DNA from: Trichococcus alkaliphilus
GTDB taxonomy: Bacteria; Bacillota; Bacilli; Lactobacillales; Aerococcaceae
Assembly (NCBI RefSeq): GCF_003008695.1
Contig: NZ_PXZT01000001.1
Span: 124,001 to 188,000, forward strand
Direction of reading: 5' to 3'
DNA length: 64,000 nt
In this document: positions 38,496-46,641 of the stretch, one piece after another
Layout of the letters: each line of letters opens with the position of its first letter
Numbering within the stretch: the first letter of the stretch is position 1
The notes under the pieces: generated by a model
Seen by the model: only the letters and a program-made list of their open reading frames with translations
Told to the model about the DNA's origin: nothing
The model's database searches: none
Position numbers and translations under genes: made by a program

Positions 38496-41156
38496 ATGCT
38501 GAAGCGTTTCACTTTCACAACCCTATCCCCGCAAAAAAATATGCTTTACCTTTCGTTCTTACTGCCCTTGTTTGTGATGATGGTCATTTATGCCACCATG
38601 GGCGTTTATCCTTTCAGCAACAGCACCTTGCTGACGGTCGATCTCGGCCAGCAATATGTGGATTTTTTCAGTTATTACCGTACTACCTTATTGTCTGATC
38701 CTTCCGCCCTTTTCTTTTCATTCACAAAATCATTCGGCGGCGAGATGTTGGGGCTGTGGGCTTACTATCTTATGAGTCCGTTCAATCTCATTTTTCTGCT
38801 TTTCCCGCAGTCCCAGTTGCCATTGGCGGTAACCATTTTGATTCTGATGAAGGTTTCGGCGTCAGGACTGACTTTTGCTCATCTGTTGATTTCCCGGTTC
38901 GAAGGCAAAGGCTTGTTGGTTCCATCCTTCGCCTTGAGTTATGCCTTGATGGGTTACGTCATCGTCAATCAATTGAACGTCATGTGGCTGGACGGGATCG
39001 TTTTCCTGCCTCTGATCATTCTTGGTTTTGAGAAACTGATGTCGGGTGAAAGCGGCCTGTACTATAGCCTACTTCTCGGAGTGATGCTGATTTCCAATTA
39101 TTATATCGGATTCATGATCTGTGTTTTCCTTGTCTTCTATTACCTTTTCGCATTTTCCAGACAAGAAGTTGTCGGCCCGAACAATCTGAAAGCGCAGCTG
39201 AAGCACTTCTTCACCCAAGCAGCCCGATTCATCGGTTATTCCTTGCTTGGAGCTGGCTTTGCCGCCGTCCTGCTGCTGCCCACCTTTTATTCGCTCTTGG
39301 GAAGCAAGGCAAGCTATGCCAACAACCTGATCGATTGGAGTTTCGCCTATGATCCTTTCGAAGTCGTTTCGAAGTTTTATATCGGAGCGTTCAATTTTGA
39401 CCAGATGCCCAGCGGACATCCCAATCTCTTTATCGGCACTGTCGCTCTGACTGCGTACATCTATTACTTTTTTCATCCCGCCTTCTCAAAAAAAGAACGG
39501 TTCACCTCATTTGCGCTGACCGCCCTCTTTTTTCTGGCGATGAACGTCCAGTTTCTGAATAAAATTTGGCATGCCGGACAATATCCGATCTGGTACCCTT
39601 ATCGTTTTTCGTTCACCGTTTGTTTCTTTTTCCTGCTGAACGGGTTTCGAGCATTGCGTTCCTATCGTCCTTTTCCCTTTTCGCTGGCCTGCTGTCTTTT
39701 GATCGCCAATGCAGTCACTGCCATCTATGTACTGAAAAAGGACTTTGAATTTCTGGAGCCTGTCCAGGTATTGATCAGTGCAATCGTTTCCGTCCTTGTC
39801 CTGGTGTTGCTGATGCTCAGGGACCAGCCCCGAAAATGGCTGACCTACGCTTTGCTTTTCGTGGTCACCGCAGAGATGACGGCAAATGCAGCCATCGACC
39901 TGTTTCGGTTGGGCTACGTCAAGCAGGACGAATTCTCCGATTATCAAGCGAATCTGAATACGATGTTGGCGGATGTGCGGACACCCGAAGACACATTCTA
40001 CCGGATCGAAAAAACGTTCCAACGCTCCAAAAACGACAGCTTCCAAGCCAATTATGCGGGAATCAATCATTTCAGCTCCACTTTCGAAAAGGAGATTCCC
40101 GGCTTGTTCGGATCATTGGGATTTCCGGACGGGAACGGATTTATCGTATACTCAACCGGGACTTTGTTTACGGATGCATTGTTCGGCATAAAATATTTCA
40201 TCCAGGACAAGAAGTTGCCGGAAACATTTTATGACCTCAATGACGGCGTGTACCGTTTGAAGCGCAACTCCACCCGCCCGGATTTGACCCAATACAATCT
40301 TTATTCCGAGACCGACCGAACCACCACCTTTGAGAATCCCTACGCGTTGTCATTGGCATTCGGGGTTTCCGAAAGTGTATTGGATCTCGAGTTGATCGAG
40401 GATCAGCCCATATTGATGCAGGAACAGCTGTTGGATGCCTTCAACAATCAGGAAAGCATCGAACCTTATTTCTCATTGCGTCCGTTCGATTCCAACGTCT
40501 TCCAGAATGTCACATCCGCTGCTGAGGATGCACAGAACACAACCTACTATCGGTCTGTGGATGGGGCAATCTCCAGGATCGAATTCCAGTTCACCCCTAC
40601 CAGCGACAATCCTTATTATCTGATACTGGATGCGGGCATCGACGACGATGACGCAACCCTTTATGTGAATAATGTGAAGTTGGATTATTATACGACCTTC
40701 CGGAACGATCAGGTCATCAACATCGCAAGCAACCAGCAGGGTGAAAACATCACCTTCACGATCGAACTGCGCGAGGACTCTATTCGGGTTCAGGACCTGA
40801 AACTTTACGAATTGAACAAAGCTCTGTTCGAGGAAACCATTTCAGATCGTCAGGCTGAAGCCATGACAATCACTTCTTTCAGCCAGACGCACATCACGGG
40901 TTCCGTCACGATCGAGGATGAAGATGAAATATTGTTGACGACGATTCCCTACAGCGAAGGCTGGGAAGTGACGGTCGATGGGGCAACTGCAGAAACAACC
41001 GCCGCTCTGAATGGCCTGCTGGCGGTGCCGATCAGCTCAGGCAAGCATACCATCGCGTTGACGTACCGCACCCCTTATCTTATGACCGGCTTGTCCATCA
41101 GCGGGGTTTCAATCGCAGGCGCCTTATTATTGAGAAAATATCGTAAAAATAAATAA
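38496..41156 (+). CDS. yfhO: YfhO-family membrane glycosyltransferase
   Basis: An 886-residue membrane protein with about 12-14 helices in the first 470 residues, a large extracellular beta-rich region (about 480-855) and a final helix followed by RKYRKNK. The N-terminal LLTVDLGQQYVDFFSYY and MWLDGIVFLPLIILGFEKL are typical of YfhO. In B. subtilis and Listeria, members glycosylate lipoteichoic or wall teichoic acid on the outer face using undecaprenyl-phosphate sugars. The ATG at 38496 lies ten bases after GGAGG; an ATG three codons earlier is only one base away. No cognate sugar-loading gene is adjacent. Confidence 0.87.
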   Translation: MLKRFTFTTLSPQKNMLYLSFLLPLFVMMVIYATMGVYPFSNSTLLTVDLGQQYVDFFSYYRTTLLSDPSALFFSFTKSFGGEMLGLWAYYLMSPFNLIFLLFPQSQLPLAVTILILMKVSASGLTFAHLLISRFEGKGLLVPSFALSYALMGYVIVNQLNVMWLDGIVFLPLIILGFEKLMSGESGLYYSLLLGVMLISNYYIGFMICVFLVFYYLFAFSRQEVVGPNNLKAQLKHFFTQAARFIGYSLLGAGFAAVLLLPTFYSLLGSKASYANNLIDWSFAYDPFEVVSKFYIGAFNFDQMPSGHPNLFIGTVALTAYIYYFFHPAFSKKERFTSFALTALFFLAMNVQFLNKIWHAGQYPIWYPYRFSFTVCFFFLLNGFRALRSYRPFPFSLACCLLIANAVTAIYVLKKDFEFLEPVQVLISAIVSVLVLVLLMLRDQPRKWLTYALLFVVTAEMTANAAIDLFRLGYVKQDEFSDYQANLNTMLADVRTPEDTFYRIEKTFQRSKNDSFQANYAGINHFSSTFEKEIPGLFGSLGFPDGNGFIVYSTGTLFTDALFGIKYFIQDKKLPETFYDLNDGVYRLKRNSTRPDLTQYNLYSETDRTTTFENPYALSLAFGVSESVLDLELIEDQPILMQEQLLDAFNNQESIEPYFSLRPFDSNVFQNVTSAAEDAQNTTYYRSVDGAISRIEFQFTPTSDNPYYLILDAGIDDDDATLYVNNVKLDYYTTFRNDQVINIASNQQGENITFTIELREDSIRVQDLKLYELNKALFEETISDRQAEAMTITSFSQTHITGSVTIEDEDEILLTTIPYSEGWEVTVDGATAETTAALNGLLAVPISSGKHTIALTYRTPYLMTGLSISGVSIAGALLLRKYRKNK

Positions 41157-41190
41157 GAAAAGCGGTTGGGACACAATCCCAGCCGCTTTT
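41157..41190. terminator. Bidirectional terminator between yfhO and the FakA/DegV gene
   Basis: The stem AAAAGCGG/CCGCTTTT with inner GGGA/TCCC pairs and T-rich flanks sits between convergent genes. Confidence 0.85.
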
Positions 41191-41231
41191 CTTATCTTTT
41201 GTTCGTCATTTTGGGAACCATGGGAAAAATC

Positions 41232-43025
41232 TTATAATTCCTCCTCACACATATATGAAATCGCCACAGTGCCGACACCGGCACTCATTCCGACGATTGT
41301 AGAAATGTTCATGATATATTCAGGTTCCTTGCCAAGTAAGGCGAAGCTGCGCTTACGATATTCTTCAGCTTTTTCGGGATTATTGGCATGCACAATCGCA
41401 TATCTCGAAATCTTCTCCTGTGCATCCACTTTTTCCAGCAATCGGAACAGCTTCTTTTCATTTCCTTTTTCGCTGAAAGCCTTCTCAGCTATTGAACCTT
41501 TGCCTTCTGCATCGATGGAAACGACAGGTTTGAGATTGATTGTCATCGCCGCCATCCCGGAAACTTTACTTAACCGTCCGGATCTCACCATGTATTTTAA
41601 GTTGTTCACGCTGACTAAGATATTTGTACGGTCCCTCAAGCGTTCAATCGCTCCAACGATTTCATCAAAAGGCGTTTCCGCCGCAATCATTTCTGCCGCT
41701 TTCATGACAAGCAACCCTTCCGCACCGGAATTCCGTTTCGAATCGATCACGGCAATTTTTTTGCCTGCGTGCAGTTTTTTCGAGACGGCATTCTGGAACA
41801 CACTGTTGGTTCCGCTCTGCTCTTTTGCGACAGTCAAAATGATGACTTTATCGTAATGGGAGAGCACCGTTTCCAGATATTTCTCGACAACGATCGGATT
41901 CGGCTGTGAACTTTTCGGATATTCGATGGCTTCTTCCAACAAAGGATAGAAAAGTTCAGGCGTCATCGTCACCTTATCGAGATAGGAAGTGTTGTCAAAA
42001 TTCAGGTTGAGCGGCAACATATGCACTTGATAGTGATCGAGCATTGCCTGCGGAATGTCCGCAATCGAGTCCGTGATCAATGCAGTGTCGTATTTCCGGT
42101 CAAAAGCGGATTCGTTCTGTCTGACCATATCATCCGCCTTCTGCTGCAGGATGATGCCTTTTTTGCGCAAAACCTGGAATACCTGTTCCGGCGCATTGGC
42201 GTGGATATGGATCCTGGCTTTGTGGTTGTTGCCAGCCACAATCAAGGAATCCCCGTAGAGTGCCAGTTCCGCTTTCAATGCTTCCAAATCAATCGAATCC
42301 CCTGACAATAGCGCTTCGGTACAGTAGCGATGGCGTATCTCCCCTTGGCTATGGATCAATTCCTCATTGAAAGAAAGATCTTCCGGTTCATCACTGACCT
42401 CCAAGTCCACTTTTCCGGTGCGTAAAAATGTCGCAAATCCTTGCAGAAAGTAGACAAACCCCTTTGCGCCGGAATCGACGACTTTGGAATCCTGGAGCAC
42501 TTTCAAACGGGAGGTCGTCGCTTCCAAAGATTTGTTGGCCGCGATCAGCGATTTTGAAAACAATTCGGAGAAGTTAGCCGAAAGGTCTTTATGGCTGTAG
42601 ACCGCATCCGCCCATTCCCGGATGACGGTGATGATTGTCCCTTCCACCGGATCGGAAATGGCCTGATAGGCATAAGGAACCGCATTTTTCACCGTTTCCG
42701 CAAATGAAGGGATGGTTATCGTCTCCTCATCCAACAGGCTGAGAAAGATCCCGTTGATGTATTGGGCAATGATGATGCCGGAATTCCCCCTGGCCCCCGT
42801 CAAAGCGGCATCGGCTATGCTGTTCATCGTTTCCTTGACGGATCCGGAAATTTTCGCCTCCAAGATGATCGCATGCATGGTTGAAGAAAGGTTGCTGCCG
42901 GTATCCCCGTCAGCAACCGGAAACACATTGATTTCATTCAGGCTATTTTTGTTTTTTATGACCTCCTGTGCACCCGACACAAAAGAATAGTAAAGCTTTT
43001 CGCTGTCCAATTTTGAAATGTCCAT
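41232..43025 (-). CDS. Fusion of FakA-type kinase (DAK2) and DegV fatty-acid-binding domains
   Basis: A 597-residue fusion. Residues 1 to about 200 are a DhaL/DAK2 domain with the Mg-ADP motif NVFPVADGDTGSNL (33-46) and LTGARGNSGIIIAQ. A middle domain (about 220-305) has YCTEALL and ARIHIHANAP, matching the FakA metal site of one Cys and two His. Residues 312-597 form a complete DegV domain (ALITDSIADIP, SGTNSVFQNA, VRSGRLSKVSG). In the fatty acid kinase system FakA phosphorylates fatty acids carried by separate FakB (DegV) proteins; here both are in one chain. GGGGGAAG precedes the ATG at 43025. Last gene of the OhrR-like cluster. Confidence 0.88.
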   Translation of the reverse strand: MDISKLDSEKLYYSFVSGAQEVIKNKNSLNEINVFPVADGDTGSNLSSTMHAIILEAKISGSVKETMNSIADAALTGARGNSGIIIAQYINGIFLSLLDEETITIPSFAETVKNAVPYAYQAISDPVEGTIITVIREWADAVYSHKDLSANFSELFSKSLIAANKSLEATTSRLKVLQDSKVVDSGAKGFVYFLQGFATFLRTGKVDLEVSDEPEDLSFNEELIHSQGEIRHRYCTEALLSGDSIDLEALKAELALYGDSLIVAGNNHKARIHIHANAPEQVFQVLRKKGIILQQKADDMVRQNESAFDRKYDTALITDSIADIPQAMLDHYQVHMLPLNLNFDNTSYLDKVTMTPELFYPLLEEAIEYPKSSQPNPIVVEKYLETVLSHYDKVIILTVAKEQSGTNSVFQNAVSKKLHAGKKIAVIDSKRNSGAEGLLVMKAAEMIAAETPFDEIVGAIERLRDRTNILVSVNNLKYMVRSGRLSKVSGMAAMTINLKPVVSIDAEGKGSIAEKAFSEKGNEKKLFRLLEKVDAQEKISRYAIVHANNPEKAEEYRKRSFALLGKEPEYIMNISTIVGMSAGVGTVAISYMCEEEL

Positions 43026-43063
43026 TAGTCTTCCCCCGTCCGCTCTTAGGCTTATTTGGTTGC

Positions 43064-43465
43064 TCAAAGAAATCTTTGTGCCGCAACATACGTGATGCCG
43101 GCAGTTGCCGCATTCAAAAAAGTTCCCCACGCCAAATCGATCAGGGTAATCGTGATCGGCCAATCCTTCAAAGTGGCCAAATTGGTCAAATCATACGTCG
43201 CGTACGCAACCAATCCGAAAAAACCGCCAGCCAAAATGGCATACTGCAGGCTTTCCTTCAAAAGGGCCGGATGGACCACAAAAAATACGAGACCGCCTAT
43301 GAACAACAGATAGAAGATTATTGCCGCCATCCAGTTGACATTCGGAGCCATGAGATGGCCCAAATACTTGCTGTAAATATTTTTGGATAGCACTCCTAGC
43401 CAGACAATATCCACTAAAAAGAACACAAAAAATGTCAAGAAATACAATTTGATGCTGTCCATCAT
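43064..43465 (-). CDS. DUF2177 family membrane protein
   Basis: A 133-residue integral membrane protein with four helices. YFLTFFVFFLVDIVWLGV at the start and GLVAYATYDLTNLATLKDWP near residue 85 are the DUF2177 signatures. Function is unknown. GGGAGG precedes two adjacent ATG codons (43465 and 43462); either may be used. It is 32 bases downstream of the ABC ATPase gene and 38 bases upstream of the FakA/DegV fusion, with no terminator on either side, so it is probably in the same transcript. Confidence 0.82.
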   Translation of the reverse strand: MMDSIKLYFLTFFVFFLVDIVWLGVLSKNIYSKYLGHLMAPNVNWMAAIIFYLLFIGGLVFFVVHPALLKESLQYAILAGGFFGLVAYATYDLTNLATLKDWPITITLIDLAWGTFLNAATAGITYVAAQRFL

Positions 43466-43497
43466 TTCTTCCTCCCTTTCCGTAATCCGATGTTGCT

Positions 43498-44175
43498 TCA
43501 GCTTCCGATTCTTTCCGTCAAAATGCCGTCTTTCATTACATAAACTTTATCACAATAGTCTATCAAACGTTCATCATGCGTCACCATGATCGTAGCCTTT
43601 TTCTTCATCTTTGTTTCCCTCGCCAAAATCTCCACCACTTCGAATGCCTTTTGCGTATCCAGACTGGCGGTCGGTTCATCCGCAAGAATGACAGCAGGGT
43701 CATGGTAGAGGGCACGGGCGATTGCGACACGTTGCCTCTGGCCGCCGGAGAGGTCACTCGGAAATTTATTTTTCAATTCGAAGATACCCAATTCTTTCAA
43801 TAATTCATCCCGTTTTTGTTTATCCACTTTGCTACGTTCGACTTTATTGGCTAAGTGTAGCTGATCCTGGACAGTCAGAAACGGGACCAGATTGGAGGCT
43901 TGGAGGATGAAGCCGATTTCCTCGAACCGCAATTTTGCCCGTTTTTTCTCGCTCACATCACTGAAGGGATTGCCGTTGATCAGTACCCGACCTTCGGAAG
44001 GGGACTGCAAACCACCCGTAATGGTCAAAAATGTACTTTTACCCGACCCACTCGGCCCGATGATTGCAACAAATTCTCCGGCTTCAACAGCAAGATTGGT
44101 TGACTTCAATGCGTCGATCCTTAATTCGCCTTCCCCGAATGAACGGGATACATCTATCAATTCGATTAATTTCAT
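43498..44175 (-). CDS. ABC transporter ATP-binding protein, MacB/HrtA-like
   Basis: A 225-residue ATPase with Walker A IIGPSGSGKST, Q-loop FILQASNLVPFLTV, signature LSGGQRQRVAIARAL, Walker B VILADEPTASLD and the switch His in VTHD. The LolD/MacB/HrtA subfamily works with a single-type FtsX-like permease to expel hydrophobic compounds or extract lipids. It lies ten bases after the permease gene. Heme export (HrtA) is one possibility, but the local regulator is not the usual heme sensor. Confidence 0.87.
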   Translation of the reverse strand: MKLIELIDVSRSFGEGELRIDALKSTNLAVEAGEFVAIIGPSGSGKSTFLTITGGLQSPSEGRVLINGNPFSDVSEKKRAKLRFEEIGFILQASNLVPFLTVQDQLHLANKVERSKVDKQKRDELLKELGIFELKNKFPSDLSGGQRQRVAIARALYHDPAVILADEPTASLDTQKAFEVVEILARETKMKKKATIMVTHDERLIDYCDKVYVMKDGILTERIGS

Positions 44176-44185
44176 ATGCTCACTC

Positions 44186-45277
44186 CTATCCGATTGCTTT
44201 CAATGGATCGATTTTGACTACTGCCCGTACTGAAAATGCACCGCCGACCATAGCCATGATGACCAACAAGGCCGCGATGATGCCCAGGAAATTCAGGTTC
44301 GTTTGGTAAGGTACGGCTGCTGGCAAGACCATTGCCGTTGCGCCCGTCAACAATAACCCGATGCCTACTCCGATAGCAGCCAATAAAAACGTTTGGATGA
44401 CGACCGATTTTGCGATATAGCCGCTCGAAATCCCTTGCGCTTTCATCACACCGAACATGCTGGTTTTCTGCATAGTCAGCACATAGATGAAGATGCCGAT
44501 CACCACGGCAGCGATGACGATCAGAAAGCCGATCATCAGTCCGAACGTCAACACTTGCGCAGTGTAGCCCGGAATTTCACTGATGTAGTCCGCTATCGAA
44601 TAAATTTTCAAGTCCGCACTTCCAGTGTCCACCTCTGCGATGGCATCACCATTGTCCCTAACGACAATGGCACTGACACGCCCTTCATCCGATTCGTCGA
44701 TTTGCTCGAAGCGGACTTCCTGATAAGAACTGACTGTTGTATAAAGCACTGGTGCGACGCTGAATCTGGCATCTTCCGTGAATCCGACAACCGTCACTTC
44801 TTTGTCGGAACCCGCGAGCTGCAGGATATCGCCCAATTCGATGCCCTCCTCTTCTTTCAAGCTGATGTCGGCGACGACCTCATCATCGTTTTGGAAGGAA
44901 TCCCCTTCAATCACTTCAGGCATCAGGAATTGATCCGCTTCGATTCCGAAGAAAGTCGTATCGATTTTGGCATCATCACCTGATGTTCCTTTTTTGTTGA
45001 CGACACTCGGTGCTATCCCGATTACTGCAGCCTCATCCGCCGCAACTTCATCGATCGCGCCTTTCGGAAGCATCGACATGTTGATGTTTGTATTCGATTC
45101 GTCCGTCAGAATGATGCCGTCCGCATCCCATTTATCTACGCTGGTCCGGTTGTCCTGGGCCAAACCATAGGCAAGACCCACCAAAAAGAACACCAAGTAG
45201 GACACCAGCACCATGACGCCGATGATCAGCGAAAACCTTGTTTTTGCATGCTTAATTTCTTTCCAAGCTAAGAACAT
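44186..45277 (-). CDS. ABC transporter permease, HrtB/FtsX-like
   Basis: A 363-residue permease with one N-terminal helix (residues 16-40, containing VMVLVSYLVFFLVGLAYGL), a large extracellular domain (about 45-230) and three C-terminal helices ending in VRAVVKIDPLKAIG. This is the MacB/FtsX type VII exporter plan. The start MFLAWKEIKHAKTRFSLI resembles HrtB heme exporters. GGAG lies eight bases before the ATG. The gene follows the OhrR-like regulator by 86 bases, in which no terminator is seen. Confidence 0.85.
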   Translation of the reverse strand: MFLAWKEIKHAKTRFSLIIGVMVLVSYLVFFLVGLAYGLAQDNRTSVDKWDADGIILTDESNTNINMSMLPKGAIDEVAADEAAVIGIAPSVVNKKGTSGDDAKIDTTFFGIEADQFLMPEVIEGDSFQNDDEVVADISLKEEEGIELGDILQLAGSDKEVTVVGFTEDARFSVAPVLYTTVSSYQEVRFEQIDESDEGRVSAIVVRDNGDAIAEVDTGSADLKIYSIADYISEIPGYTAQVLTFGLMIGFLIVIAAVVIGIFIYVLTMQKTSMFGVMKAQGISSGYIAKSVVIQTFLLAAIGVGIGLLLTGATAMVLPAAVPYQTNLNFLGIIAALLVIMAMVGGAFSVRAVVKIDPLKAIG

Positions 45278-45363
45278 TTTTGCAACTCCTTCATTTCTTC
45301 TGTTATTTTATCTATCGTTGACGAAAAATAGATTGATTCCGCAAGTAGGATGCCTACACACTC

Positions 45364-45819
45364 CTAGCTTGCACCGGCATCTCCCTGATTCATCGCGCTG
45401 TTCAGCATTTTCAACTGCTTCATCAAAAACAAGCCATCGATGCCTTCAAGGTTGCAGGCATTCACTTCGGACAAAATAGCCAAATTGATCGCCTTCTTAG
45501 AAGTGACCCCTTTTTCACTCAATGAAATGATCGTAGCGCGCTTATCCAAAAGAGACGGTTCCTTCGTGAGCCAACCCTGTTTTTCGAGACGGTTCAATAT
45601 GGGGTTCAACGTCCCGATCCCCATCCCTAACCGCTCTCCGATGTGTTTGATCAATATATTGTCCTCATCCCATAGAGCAAGCAAAACGAGGTATTGCGGG
45701 AATGTCAAATGGAAATCTTTCAATGCACGATTATATATTTTGCCGAAACCATTTGAAGCCCGATAGACTTCGAAACAAAGCTGATCCTCAAGCGGCCATT
45801 CAAAAATAGATTCATCCAT
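45364..45819 (-). CDS. MarR-family regulator, OhrR-like with conserved Cys15
   Basis: A 151-residue winged-helix dimeric repressor. DQLCFEVYRAS puts a cysteine exactly at residue 15, the peroxide-sensing position of B. subtilis OhrR. Tyr29 is also conserved, while position 40 is Phe (LTFPQYLVLLALW) instead of Tyr. The DNA-binding wing region is LEKQGWLTKEPSLLDKRAT. Together this suggests sensing of organic or lipid hydroperoxides, although no ohr gene is near. AGGAGG precedes the ATG. A long inverted repeat overlapping the promoter is the probable autoregulatory operator. Confidence 0.85.
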   Translation of the reverse strand: MDESIFEWPLEDQLCFEVYRASNGFGKIYNRALKDFHLTFPQYLVLLALWDEDNILIKHIGERLGMGIGTLNPILNRLEKQGWLTKEPSLLDKRATIISLSEKGVTSKKAINLAILSEVNACNLEGIDGLFLMKQLKMLNSAMNQGDAGAS

Positions 45820-45852
45820 CCTGATACCGCCTCCTTTCCAAATTTATCTCAA

Positions 45853-45888
45853 CGATCAATATACATCTTACAAGATATATATTAATCG
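45853..45888. promoter_or_regulatory. 36-bp inverted repeat, candidate operator of the OhrR-like regulator
   Basis: The left arm is CGATCAATATACATCTT; the right arm is its complement at 15 of 17 positions, around a two-base centre. It covers the -10 box of the regulator promoter and lies 33 bases before its start codon. Confidence 0.72.
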
Positions 45889-45907
45889 ATAAAATCTGGA
45901 AAGTAAA
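45879..45907 (-). promoter_or_regulatory. Promoter of the OhrR-like gene cluster
   Basis: TTTACT (45907-45902) and TAATAT (45884-45879) are 17 bases apart on the minus strand; the -10 box falls inside the inverted repeat. Confidence 0.6.
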
Positions 45908-45971: not shown

Positions 45972-46007
45972 AAAAAAAGGATTCAGAGCGGGTGCCCTGA
46001 ATCCTTT
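45972..46007 (-). terminator. Terminator after sodA
   Basis: The stem AAAGGATTCAG / CTGAATCCTTT (one bulge) is followed on the minus strand by a run of seven T. Confidence 0.88.
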
Positions 46008-46032: not shown

Positions 46033-46641
46033 TTATTTTGCTGCAGCTAAACGGCTGTTGACTTCATCCCAGTTCACAAGGTTCCAGAATGCTTTGATGT
46101 ACTCAGGACGCACGTTCTTGTAGTTCAAGTAATATGCATGTTCCCATACATCAAGGCCCAAAATCGGCGTTTTGCCTTCGCTGATCGGCGAATCTTGGTT
46201 TGGTGTGGAGGTGATTTCCAATTTACCATCGGAAACTACCAGCCAAGCCCATCCGGATCCGAAACGGCCTACTGCTGCCGCAGCGAATTTTTCTTTCATG
46301 GCATCAAAGCTGCCGAATGCTTCTTCGATTCCGTCCTTGACAGCTCCTGTAGGTTCTCCGCCTGCATTAGGCGCCAAAACTGTCCAGAATAAGCTGTGGT
46401 TTGCATGTCCGCCACCGTTGTTGCGGACAGCCGTACGGATGTCTTCCGGAACGCTGTTCAAGTCAGCCAATAATTCCTCAATCGTTTTTTCAGCCAACTC
46501 AGGGTGTTTCTCCAATGCTGCGTTCACATTCGTAATGTAGGTATTATGATGTTTCTCATGATGCAAATGCATCGTTTCCTCATCGATGTATGGTGTCAAA
46601 GCGTCGTACGCGTAAGGTAATGCTGGTAATGTAAAAGCCAT
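46033..46641 (-). CDS. sodA: Superoxide dismutase, Mn/Fe family
   Basis: A 202-residue dismutase that converts superoxide to hydrogen peroxide and oxygen. Metal ligands are His27 (in HLHHEKHH), the His of [11 protein letters not shown], and Asp and His of [12 protein letters not shown]. The GGGHANH signature suggests the manganese-preferring type, as expected for Lactobacillales. AGGAGGAATTTATC precedes the ATG. It has its own promoter and terminator. It sits next to the OhrR-like cluster but is transcribed separately. Confidence 0.97.

Follow-up and report, generated by a model that had tools for sequence, protein, structure and literature searches.

A carrier-fused, predicted fatty acid kinase paired with DUF2177 in a five-gene cluster of Trichococcus, with a possible role in photo-oxidative stress

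Layout and control region of the cluster

The window analyzed here, a stretch of 64,000 nucleotides from Trichococcus alkaliphilus, carries five co-directional genes, all on the minus strand and separated by intergenic gaps of 86, 10, 32 and 38 bp (Table 1). The first-pass annotation, made from the letters and their open reading frames, had described five leftward genes with these spacings and no terminator between them, and this was found to be exact by coordinates, terminator scan and folding: in the scan all four gaps were free of minus-strand terminator-like sites (some lie inside genes), and no stable hairpin was obtained when the two gaps flanking DUF2177 in the window were folded. The start of the fusion was taken as the ATG at 43025; the alternative in the ORF list is a 643 aa product starting from a TTG inside DUF2177.

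Table 1. Genes and putative regulatory features of the cluster, in positions of the window
Feature	Coordinates	Strand	Details
MarR-family OhrR-like regulator (Cys15, Cys122)	45364..45819	-	151 aa; Pfam MarR 46 bits
HrtB-like FtsX-type ABC permease	44186..45277	-	363 aa; PF02687
ABC ATPase, DevA/LolD/MacB type	43498..44175	-	225 aa; Pfam ABC_tran, NCBIfam
DUF2177 four-helix membrane protein	43064..43465	-	133 aa; PF09945 157 bits
Dak2 + FakA-middle + DegV fusion, predicted single-chain fatty acid kinase	41232..43025	-	597 aa; Pfam, NCBIfam
Inverted repeat with probable operator core ATATCTTGTAAGATGTA (45862-45878), overlapping promoter-like site	45846..45895	-	
Terminator-like hairpin closing the cluster, shared with convergent gene	41153..41195	.	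Scan and folding
Terminator-like hairpin of upstream SOD gene, setting SOD apart from the cluster	45976..46007	-	Scan and folding

A promoter buried in a long inverted repeat had also been proposed, and this too held: two arms of 24 nt each (45846-45869 and 45872-45895; complementarity 79%) overlap a weak promoter-like match at 45885-45858, a type of match that is not more frequent in the window than in shuffled sequence (8 found, mean 7.6 after shuffling), and the palindrome core is kept, with small changes, in 12/12 aligned Trichococcus promoters. At loci L202 and L203 the permease is likewise preceded by a similar palindrome. Searching the genome with the operator returned a single site with ≤1 mismatch and 12 matches in total, compared with 3 for a backward control, and no wider regulon is therefore claimed.

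We infer that the five genes are co-transcribed. The five genes of locus L041 were also scanned, and forward terminators were absent between them. A terminator-like hairpin was recognized by eye in T. palustris, and then folded, between the genes for the regulator and exporter (the MarR-ABC module) and those for DUF2177 and the fusion (the kinase module); it was overlooked by the scan, presumably owing to a loop longer than the scan allows. The single transcript proposed earlier thus agrees with the gaps of the window but is not universal in the genus.

A predicted fatty acid kinase fused to its carrier, and its probable membrane partners

Fatty acid kinase is otherwise known as a pair of separate proteins. 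The Pfam domains of the fusion (Dak2, FakA-like_M and DegV) correspond to the kinase and catalytic domains of FakA, with a FakB/DegV domain at the place where FakA has its FakB-docking domain. DegV covers the C-terminal half with a full-length match (210.8 bits, profile positions 2-278 of 280); the related family FakA-like_C matches the same half at 35.9 bits (cut-off 23), far below DegV. Because DegV stands in place of the FakA_C docking domain, the fusion was not classed as a canonical FakA. In the AlphaFold2 model (pLDDT 90.1, pTM 0.86), the N-terminal half matched FakA_N by Foldseek at TM 0.89-0.95 and the DegV half matched FakB/DegV structures, many of them titled as fatty-acid-loaded, at TM 0.80-0.91 (target-normalized); matches of the fusion included FakA-FakB2, FakA_N and FakB.

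Eleven residues (N33, D39, D41, T42, N81, D184, C235, H273, H275, S404 and R484) are identical in 19/19 and in 35/35 aligned fusions, the larger alignment adding 34 of the 80 named loci to the window protein. By alignment, N33/D39/D41/T42/N81/D184 correspond to the Mg/ATP residues Asn32/Asp38/Asp40/Thr41/Asn82/Asp185 of FakA, C235/H273/H275 to its catalytic Cys240/His282/His284, and R484 to FakB1 Arg173; S404 is the sole invariant residue of the set without a listed FakA or FakB1 counterpart. Sections of the work on FakA and FakB1 (PMC9136124) give all of these counterparts as ligands or as essential for activity, state that FakB1 Arg173 is required for phosphotransfer, and describe FakA_NL, without the C domain, as active with an apparent KM for FakB1 of 0.99 versus 0.09 μM. 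By analogy, a covalently joined FakB would bypass the weak KM of a FakA lacking its C domain. The first-pass call of a FakA/DegV fusion was therefore well founded, being backed by the Pfam domains, these residues and the predicted fold. Compared with FakA/FakB of Staphylococcus aureus and Streptococcus, as covered by the same sections (PMC9136124), the Dak2 ATP site, the Cys-His-His set, the DegV carrier fold and the essential Arg are common to both, whereas the fusion is one chain with FakB in place of the docking domain, has usually replaced the C-terminal His of FakB, and is constantly accompanied by DUF2177 (within the window's order) and frequently by DUF1295.

The His in question belongs to the HxGxG loop, is found at that position in five DegV/FakB alignments, and corresponds to Ser581 in the window protein. 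In FakB it has a role in carboxylate binding, and with the residue mostly replaced the carboxylate site of the fusion may differ. A His-to-Ser change as a family-wide signature was rejected when the wider alignment showed His in 9/35 fusions and a replacement in 26/35, and it is retained as a caution only.

The fusion is a widespread, undescribed form of predicted fatty acid kinase: no description of a DegV-DAK2 fusion fatty acid kinase was found in the open-licence literature, which does not imply absence from print. Its closest relatives outside Trichococcus are clostridial, and relatives range from Firmicutes to Spirochaetes, Bacteroidales and Legionella, with DUF2177 present in only part of this range. 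Within the window's order the fusion was found in 84/395 genomes, 82 of which also have DUF2177, and 82 of the 83 genomes with a strong DUF2177 match have the fusion; for 83/85 fusion copies in these genomes, DUF2177 lies on the same strand at ≤481 bp. DUF1295 (5-alpha-reductase-like) occurs within 1.5 kb and on the same strand at 58/80 named loci. It adjoins the fusion in 5/13 Trichococcus genomes and is missing from the window locus, so that this third partner could not have been seen by the earlier reader. The AlphaFold2 model of DUF2177 has four helices (pLDDT 93.4); its fold search gave no Foldseek match at E ≤0.001, and the best VIA match (Z 6.3, to WbaP) lay at the noise level of helical bundles. 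The pairing of a carrier-fused kinase with DUF2177, almost invariable within the window's order, and its frequent pairing with DUF1295 place two families of unknown function in a biochemical setting. Both are among the SAK1-dependent singlet-oxygen genes in the relevant portion of a Chlamydomonas study (PMC4067076).

The OhrR-like regulator and exporter as a separate module

Co-occurrence of the five families in related genomes held within the genus, the block, with its gene order kept, being present in 11/12 other Trichococcus genomes (the remaining one has a contig that begins just ahead of the permease), and did not extend beyond it, the combination of MarR-ABC and kinase module as one block being seen in no other genus examined. 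The five-gene set was accordingly rejected as a widespread system. The composition proposed as a unit is instead divisible: order-wide the unit is DUF2177 with the fusion, and MarR-ABC stands separately, without the kinase, in other genera. The Trichococcus cluster joins these two older modules.

In the regulator, Cys15 (the peroxidatic Cys in Bacillus subtilis OhrR numbering), Tyr29 and Cys122 are identical in 17/17 orthologues (12 from Trichococcus and 5 crtN-linked), and Tyr43 is also conserved in this alignment; we take Tyr29 and Tyr43 to be the partner tyrosines of an OhrR-type Cys. With 95.3 bits against the NCBIfam OhrR model NF052638 (TransRegOhrRVib), the cut-off of 200 is not reached and the protein is termed only OhrR-like, so that of the sensor identified in the first pass the cysteine signature stands and full membership of the family does not. 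Its Cys15/Cys122 spacing is close to that of the 2-Cys OhrR pairs Cys22/Cys127 and Cys21/Cys126 given in part of PMC3469484, with which it shares the N-terminal reactive Cys, a second Cys ~105 residues on and the organic-hydroperoxide sensor motif; it differs in heading exporter and lipid genes and in its score. Visual inspection of the ORFs surrounding the cluster turned up no ohr (OsmC-type) gene.

The permease is HrtB-like, as first annotated: it has a full-length phmmer match (E 1.6e-16) to PDB 7w78, presumably the HrtBA heme exporter, and its partner ATPase lies alongside, but it belongs to a very common family (336/395 genomes of the window's order) and the likeness is one of sequence. 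Several related genera have MarR-ABC near carotenoid-type genes; of 12 permease loci picked, MarR-ABC adjoins crtN/crtM-type genes at 5, and 6 have no crt gene. Squalene/phytoene synthase was found above the cut-off in 0/13 Trichococcus genomes, 5 of which have weak partial matches, while 7/14 control genomes were positive; the carotenoid link thus fails in the window's own genus, and an exporter serving carotenoids in Trichococcus was rejected.

Neighboring genes and competing interpretations

Neighbors were compared with 40 control regions, which were drawn from the window's order only while most test loci came from wider taxa; the profiles for photolyase, PlsY and the regulators were built from some of the same test loci, the fusion loci are not independent, and four contigs (L078/L110, L079/L115, L084/L158 and L096/L146) are present twice among the 107. 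On these terms, photolyase was found at 14/107 fusion loci (0/40 controls), B12-binding HTH or MerR regulators (light-sensor-like) at 7/80 named loci (0/40), PlsY at 9/80 (0/40) and, less tellingly, MsrA/B at 7/80 (1/40). In three of the clostridial near relatives (L103, L104 and L106; not L105), DUF2177 has photolyase upstream of it. PlsY, an acyl-phosphate acyltransferase, is directly upstream of the fusion on the same strand at L154 and L163 and on the opposite strand in 7/9 cases; neither it nor the B12 regulators were found at the 27 order fusion loci. The whole kinase module lies next to crtN/crtM in one lineage. No report of DegV with carotenoid genes and photolyase in Enterococcus was found in the open-licence literature.

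Heliorhodopsin is present in 13/13 Trichococcus genomes, and that of Trichococcus has already been studied (PMC9769723, PMC11109279). The heliorhodopsin operons treated in parts of these papers resemble the cluster in their recurrent photolyase, MerR regulators, ABC transporters and DUF2177; they differ in that heliorhodopsin lies elsewhere in the window genome and that no kinase is reported in those parts (PMC9769723, PMC11109279). Rhodobacter RSP1087-1091 (UfaM/UfaD/UfaO; PMC7380195) and the Chlamydomonas SAK1 genes (PMC4067076) likewise combine lipid-modification families of unknown function with photo-oxidative stress, but the portions concerned report no fatty acid kinase, and the window cluster has no furan-pathway or cyclopropane-synthase gene.

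The interpretation that we favor, at slightly better than even probability, is that the cluster produces acyl-phosphate for membrane upkeep in photo-oxidative stress and is controlled by an OhrR-like repressor with two cysteines. The fusion would be a self-contained fatty acid kinase, with Dak2 and the middle domain providing ATP binding and Cys-His-His, and, as the FakB/DegV domain replaces the docking domain in sequence and predicted fold, its fatty-acid carrier would be tethered in cis. It would make acyl-phosphate, from which PlsY would return the acyl chain to phospholipid, a step supported by the PlsY neighbors in several phyla; DUF2177 and DUF1295 may act with it at the membrane, the probable substrates being acyl chains freed or altered by light and oxygen damage. 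In Trichococcus, the kinase module would have been placed under an OhrR-like repressor bound to the palindromic promoter and released when lipid hydroperoxides oxidize Cys15, and the HrtB-like exporter would remove a hydrophobic photosensitizer or oxidized lipid. The photolyase, B12-binding regulators, crtN/crtM, MsrA/B and heliorhodopsin favor light-driven oxidation over exogenous lipids, so that of the earlier suggestion of a response to oxidized or foreign lipids the first part fits and the second is not supported. The fusion and its ties to DUF2177 and DUF1295 also suggest that a dedicated lipid module, perhaps connected with light and oxidation damage, is maintained in many non-phototrophic bacteria, including Listeria, Enterococcus and Lactococcus species. 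A more specific and doubtful extension would make DUF2177, the fusion and DUF1295 an undescribed pathway that repairs membrane lipids after photo-oxidative damage. Acyl chains damaged by singlet oxygen would be set free, undergo reduction by DUF1295 and phosphorylation by the fusion, and be re-inserted by PlsY; Trichococcus would have added a lipid-hydroperoxide sensor and an exporter.

Domains and fold that are those of FakA and FakB, together with the PlsY neighbors and the absence of photolyase from 93/107 fusion loci (within the sequence stretches examined), are what would be expected of an ordinary salvage kinase, equipped with a carrier of its own and acting on fatty acids of exogenous or turnover origin, whose neighbors reflect coincidence or lifestyle. 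We regard this as unlikely: a canonical FakA-like match is already present in the genome along with several DegV matches, DUF2177 and DUF1295 are regular companions of the fusion, and the photolyase and B12-binding regulators found at fusion loci were seen at 0/40 controls. The frequent loss of the FakB His, the reductase-like DUF1295, and crtN/crtM beside MarR-ABC and, once, the whole module would also suit a kinase for an uncommon substrate (e.g. an apo-carotenoid, polyprenoid or branched acid) that, together with DUF1295 and DUF2177, leads to an unusual membrane lipid; against the close match of the predicted carrier domain to fatty-acid-loaded DegV structures, PlsY neighbors that imply acyl-phosphate, and crtM at 0/80 named and 2/27 order fusion loci, this is rather improbable.

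Photo-oxidative membrane upkeep as a shared task of all five genes must also be weighed against mere adjacency, in Trichococcus, of an unrelated MarR-ABC module for drug or heme export and a DUF2177-kinase module without common function. The occurrence of MarR-ABC without the kinase, the ubiquity of the permease family and the T. palustris hairpin are consistent with this, but we consider it very unlikely: the ATPase-DUF2177 gap in the window is short and hairpin-free, both modules have photolyase, UV-repair or crt neighbors at some loci, and an exporter of this type also lies beside the kinase module in Sporosarcina (L108) and in five genomes of the window's order (G041, G137, G246, G269 and G365).

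Layout of the cluster and its conservation in Trichococcus

The first-pass annotation's description of five leftward genes with gaps of 86, 10, 32 and 38 bp matches the ORF coordinates. Domain calls with Pfam and NCBIfam gave a MarR regulator, an FtsX-type permease, an ABC ATPase and a 597-residue Dak2 + FakA-middle + DegV protein (hereafter the fusion); the fourth gene was assigned to DUF2177 with Pfam, and its product was without any NCBIfam match. The fusion starts at an ATG, and a longer 643-residue ORF starts at an upstream TTG within DUF2177. Terminators had been described as lacking between the genes, and in a scan of the window minus-strand terminator-like sites were absent from all four gaps; folding of the two gaps flanking DUF2177 gave no stable hairpin. 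Strong hairpins terminate the cluster and the upstream superoxide dismutase (SOD) gene, and the predicted promoter lies, as had been proposed, inside a long inverted repeat. We infer that the five genes form a single transcript in the window. The SOD gene, directly upstream of the cluster, has its own terminator, and SOD is also upstream in loci L098, L099, L101 and L102.

Coordinates of features in the window (bare numbers) and in other loci or contigs
Feature	Location	Remark
Five-gene cluster	41232-45819	minus strand
Hairpin terminating cluster	41153-41195	strong
Start codon of fusion	43025	ATG
Inverted repeat with predicted promoter	45846-45895	
Hairpin terminating SOD gene	45976-46007	strong
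SOD gene	46033-46641	
T. palustris hairpin	L042:8412-8462	followed by U run
Heliorhodopsin gene, window genome	G000:C19:161669-162427	
Longer DUF1295 gene, window genome	L178:7340-8215	291 aa
PlsY gene, Spirochaetales	L154:6233-6967	same strand as fusion
PlsY gene, Spirochaetales	L163:6261-6995	same strand as fusion

The window genome belongs to Trichococcus, species of which gave the closest named hits. The fusion was found in 12 other Trichococcus genomes, and the neighbourhood proved conserved within the genus: the five genes occur in identical order in 11 of the 12, and in the twelfth (G010) the contig begins 339 bp before the permease, with no MarR gene visible. The permease-ATPase and DUF2177-fusion junctions were near-constant across the genus; measured between aligned ends, the MarR-permease gap ranged from 29 to 208 nt. 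The spacing from ATPase to DUF2177 was 32 to 48 nt except in T. palustris, the most divergent species (193 nt). The latter gap contains a hairpin (-14.7 kcal/mol; equally stable in 0/200 shuffles) that suggests two transcription units there, so the predicted single transcript of the window need not apply genus-wide.

A tree built from 50 fusions placed Trichococcus in one group (support 1.0) with a Tissierellia genome and the genera Proteiniclasticum and Youngiibacter, apart from other Lactobacillales. Horizontal transfer is likely. A photolyase gene lies upstream of DUF2177 in three clostridial relatives (L103, L104 and L106) and not in a fourth (L105).

The predicted kinase fusion and its partner genes

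Residues of the fusion were compared with FakA and FakB reference residues from PMC9136124. In alignments of 19 and 35 fusions, the Mg-ATP-binding residues of FakA and its catalytic Cys-His-His residues never varied, and neither did the essential FakB Arg. In the PDB, the confident AlphaFold2 model (mean pLDDT 90.1, pTM 0.86) best matched a FakA-FakB2 complex, FakA_N and FakB/DegV chains, of which many bear titles describing a fatty-acid-loaded state. According to excerpts of PMC9136124, FakA_NL without the third domain is active, with an apparent KM for FakB about tenfold higher. The fusion differs from FakA in carrying FakB itself in place of that domain, and on this basis it was labelled a single-chain fatty acid kinase; it very probably has fatty acid kinase activity. 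One feature argues against simply equating this part with FakB: in the last loop, the window fusion has Ser (residue 581) where FakB has a conserved His. Across 35 fusions this column held Ser in 15, His in 9, Asn in 8, Gly in 2 and Phe in 1, variation that may, judging from the alignment, mark different ligands. The window genome also encodes a canonical FakA-like match and several further DegV matches, so the fusion adds to these rather than replacing them.

Among 395 genomes of the order, 84 carried the fusion (E up to 1e-50) and 83 a strong DUF2177 match (85 counting two weak ones), with both in 82 (hypergeometric 1e-81, genomes treated as unrelated). The fusion occurred without DUF2177 in G074 and G219, the latter 71% complete; among strong-match genomes only G233 had DUF2177 without the fusion, and its match is broken by stops. 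The G233 copy (contig C38) looks as if the pair had been lost together. For 83 of 85 fusion copies, a DUF2177 gene of the same orientation was no more than 481 bp away (72 upstream, 11 downstream).

The five-part composition first described holds in Trichococcus, but it is the part list of one genus and overlooked a third partner. This partner, DUF1295, is a membrane protein with matches to the 5-alpha-reductase family as well, and its gene usually comes directly after the fusion. Among 80 named loci from wider taxa, the best 80 of at least 564 relatives, DUF1295 was on the same strand within 1.5 kb in 58, DUF2177 in 43, both in 38 and neither in 17, some of these 17 being short contigs (L169 was counted via an overlapping ORF). 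Gene order within this trio differs among loci, which points to function over frozen synteny. DUF1295 is retained behind the fusion in 5 of 13 Trichococcus genomes, the window species being without it; a second, longer DUF1295 lies elsewhere in 11 of the 13, window species included (of the two without it, G007 is 51% complete). That DUF1295 is a reductase working on the same lipid is a tentative assignment.

A long-type DUF1295 precedes the fusion in L092, where, as in L178, SGNH- and ABC-2-like neighbours were seen by eye. Genome G246 has two distinct fusion modules (L093 and L094), the second with an ABC exporter on both sides. A DUF1475-like and DUF3159 gene pair recurs beside the fusion in L146, L165, L116 and L120.

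Regulator, exporter and proposed light-stress context

In Trichococcus, two modules for photo-oxidative stress appear to have come together in one cluster: one would comprise an OhrR-like sensor and exporter, the other a lipid module around the single-chain fatty acid kinase. The earlier idea of a response to oxidised lipids was judged sound. We lean towards a photo-oxidative role; the reading that combines it with kinase activity and, as a probable point only, a DUF1295 reductase is favoured by a narrow measure.

Two cysteines of the MarR protein, Cys15 (placed as in OhrR) and Cys122, are unchanged in 12 Trichococcus and 5 other orthologues. They are spaced much as in the 2-Cys OhrR proteins of PMC3469484. 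The window protein scores under the OhrR model cut-off. The permease's nearest solved structure was PDB 7w78 (E 1.6e-16), and relatives occur in 336 of 395 order genomes, so the exporter on its own is ordinary. Of 12 permease loci hand-picked from the order-wide matches, five had MarR and crtN/crtM-type genes alongside, one had a crtN-type gene without MarR, and crt genes were absent from six; Pfam confirmed the MarR/crt families at L203 and UvdE at L205 and L209. A palindrome resembling the window's putative operator immediately precedes the permease in L202 and L203. In at least 5 of 73 non-Trichococcus fusion genomes (G041, G137, G246, G269 and G365) and in Sporosarcina (L108), an exporter of this type is found next to the kinase module (DUF2177 and fusion, often with DUF1295). 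At two loci with exporter and kinase module (L214 and L215) crtN/crtM come next, and photolyase is nearby in L214, L216, L094 and L108.

Neighbour families were clustered, named with Pfam and counted with one profile set over all loci, the profiles being seeded from some of the loci counted. Loci are not independent: the two test sets share four contigs, recognised by equal length (L078/L110, L079/L115, L084/L158, L096/L146). In addition, L103, L104 and L106 belong to a single clade, as do L094, L214 and L216 to another.

Neighbour families at 80 named loci (best 80 of at least 564 relatives), at 27 order loci and in 40 control regions. Controls come from fusion-carrying order genomes, at a distance of about 40-66 kb on the same contigs; they do not match the wide taxa of the named loci
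Family	Named (80)	Order (27)	Control (40)
Photolyase	9	5	0
PlsY	9	0	0
B12-binding HTH or MerR regulators	7	0	0
MsrA/B	7	0	1
crtN-type	0	2	1
crtM	0	2	0
UvdE	1	0	0
SOD	4 (all Trichococcus)	0	0

Photolyase genes ran in the same direction as the fusion in 11 of 14 cases, and PlsY genes in the opposite direction in 7 of 9. Heliorhodopsin was present in all 13 Trichococcus genomes searched, and carotenoid synthase passed the cut-off in 0/13. In Listeria, lmo0591 may be the DUF1295 gene of the kinase module. PMC2248587 places lmo0591 among sigma-B regulon genes, and PMC6737072 lists it with the three-gene span LMRG_00271 to LMRG_00273. Heliorhodopsin of T. flocculiformis binds class 2 photolyase (PMC9769723, in extract), and heliorhodopsin neighbours include photolyase, MerR regulators, ABC transporters and DUF2177 (PMC11109279, likewise in extract). 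For Chlamydomonas, a portion of PMC4067076 reports that singlet-oxygen induction of a DUF2177 and a DUF1295 gene requires SAK1.

At two Spirochaetales loci (L154 and L163) PlsY lies directly upstream of the fusion, with DUF1295 further upstream.
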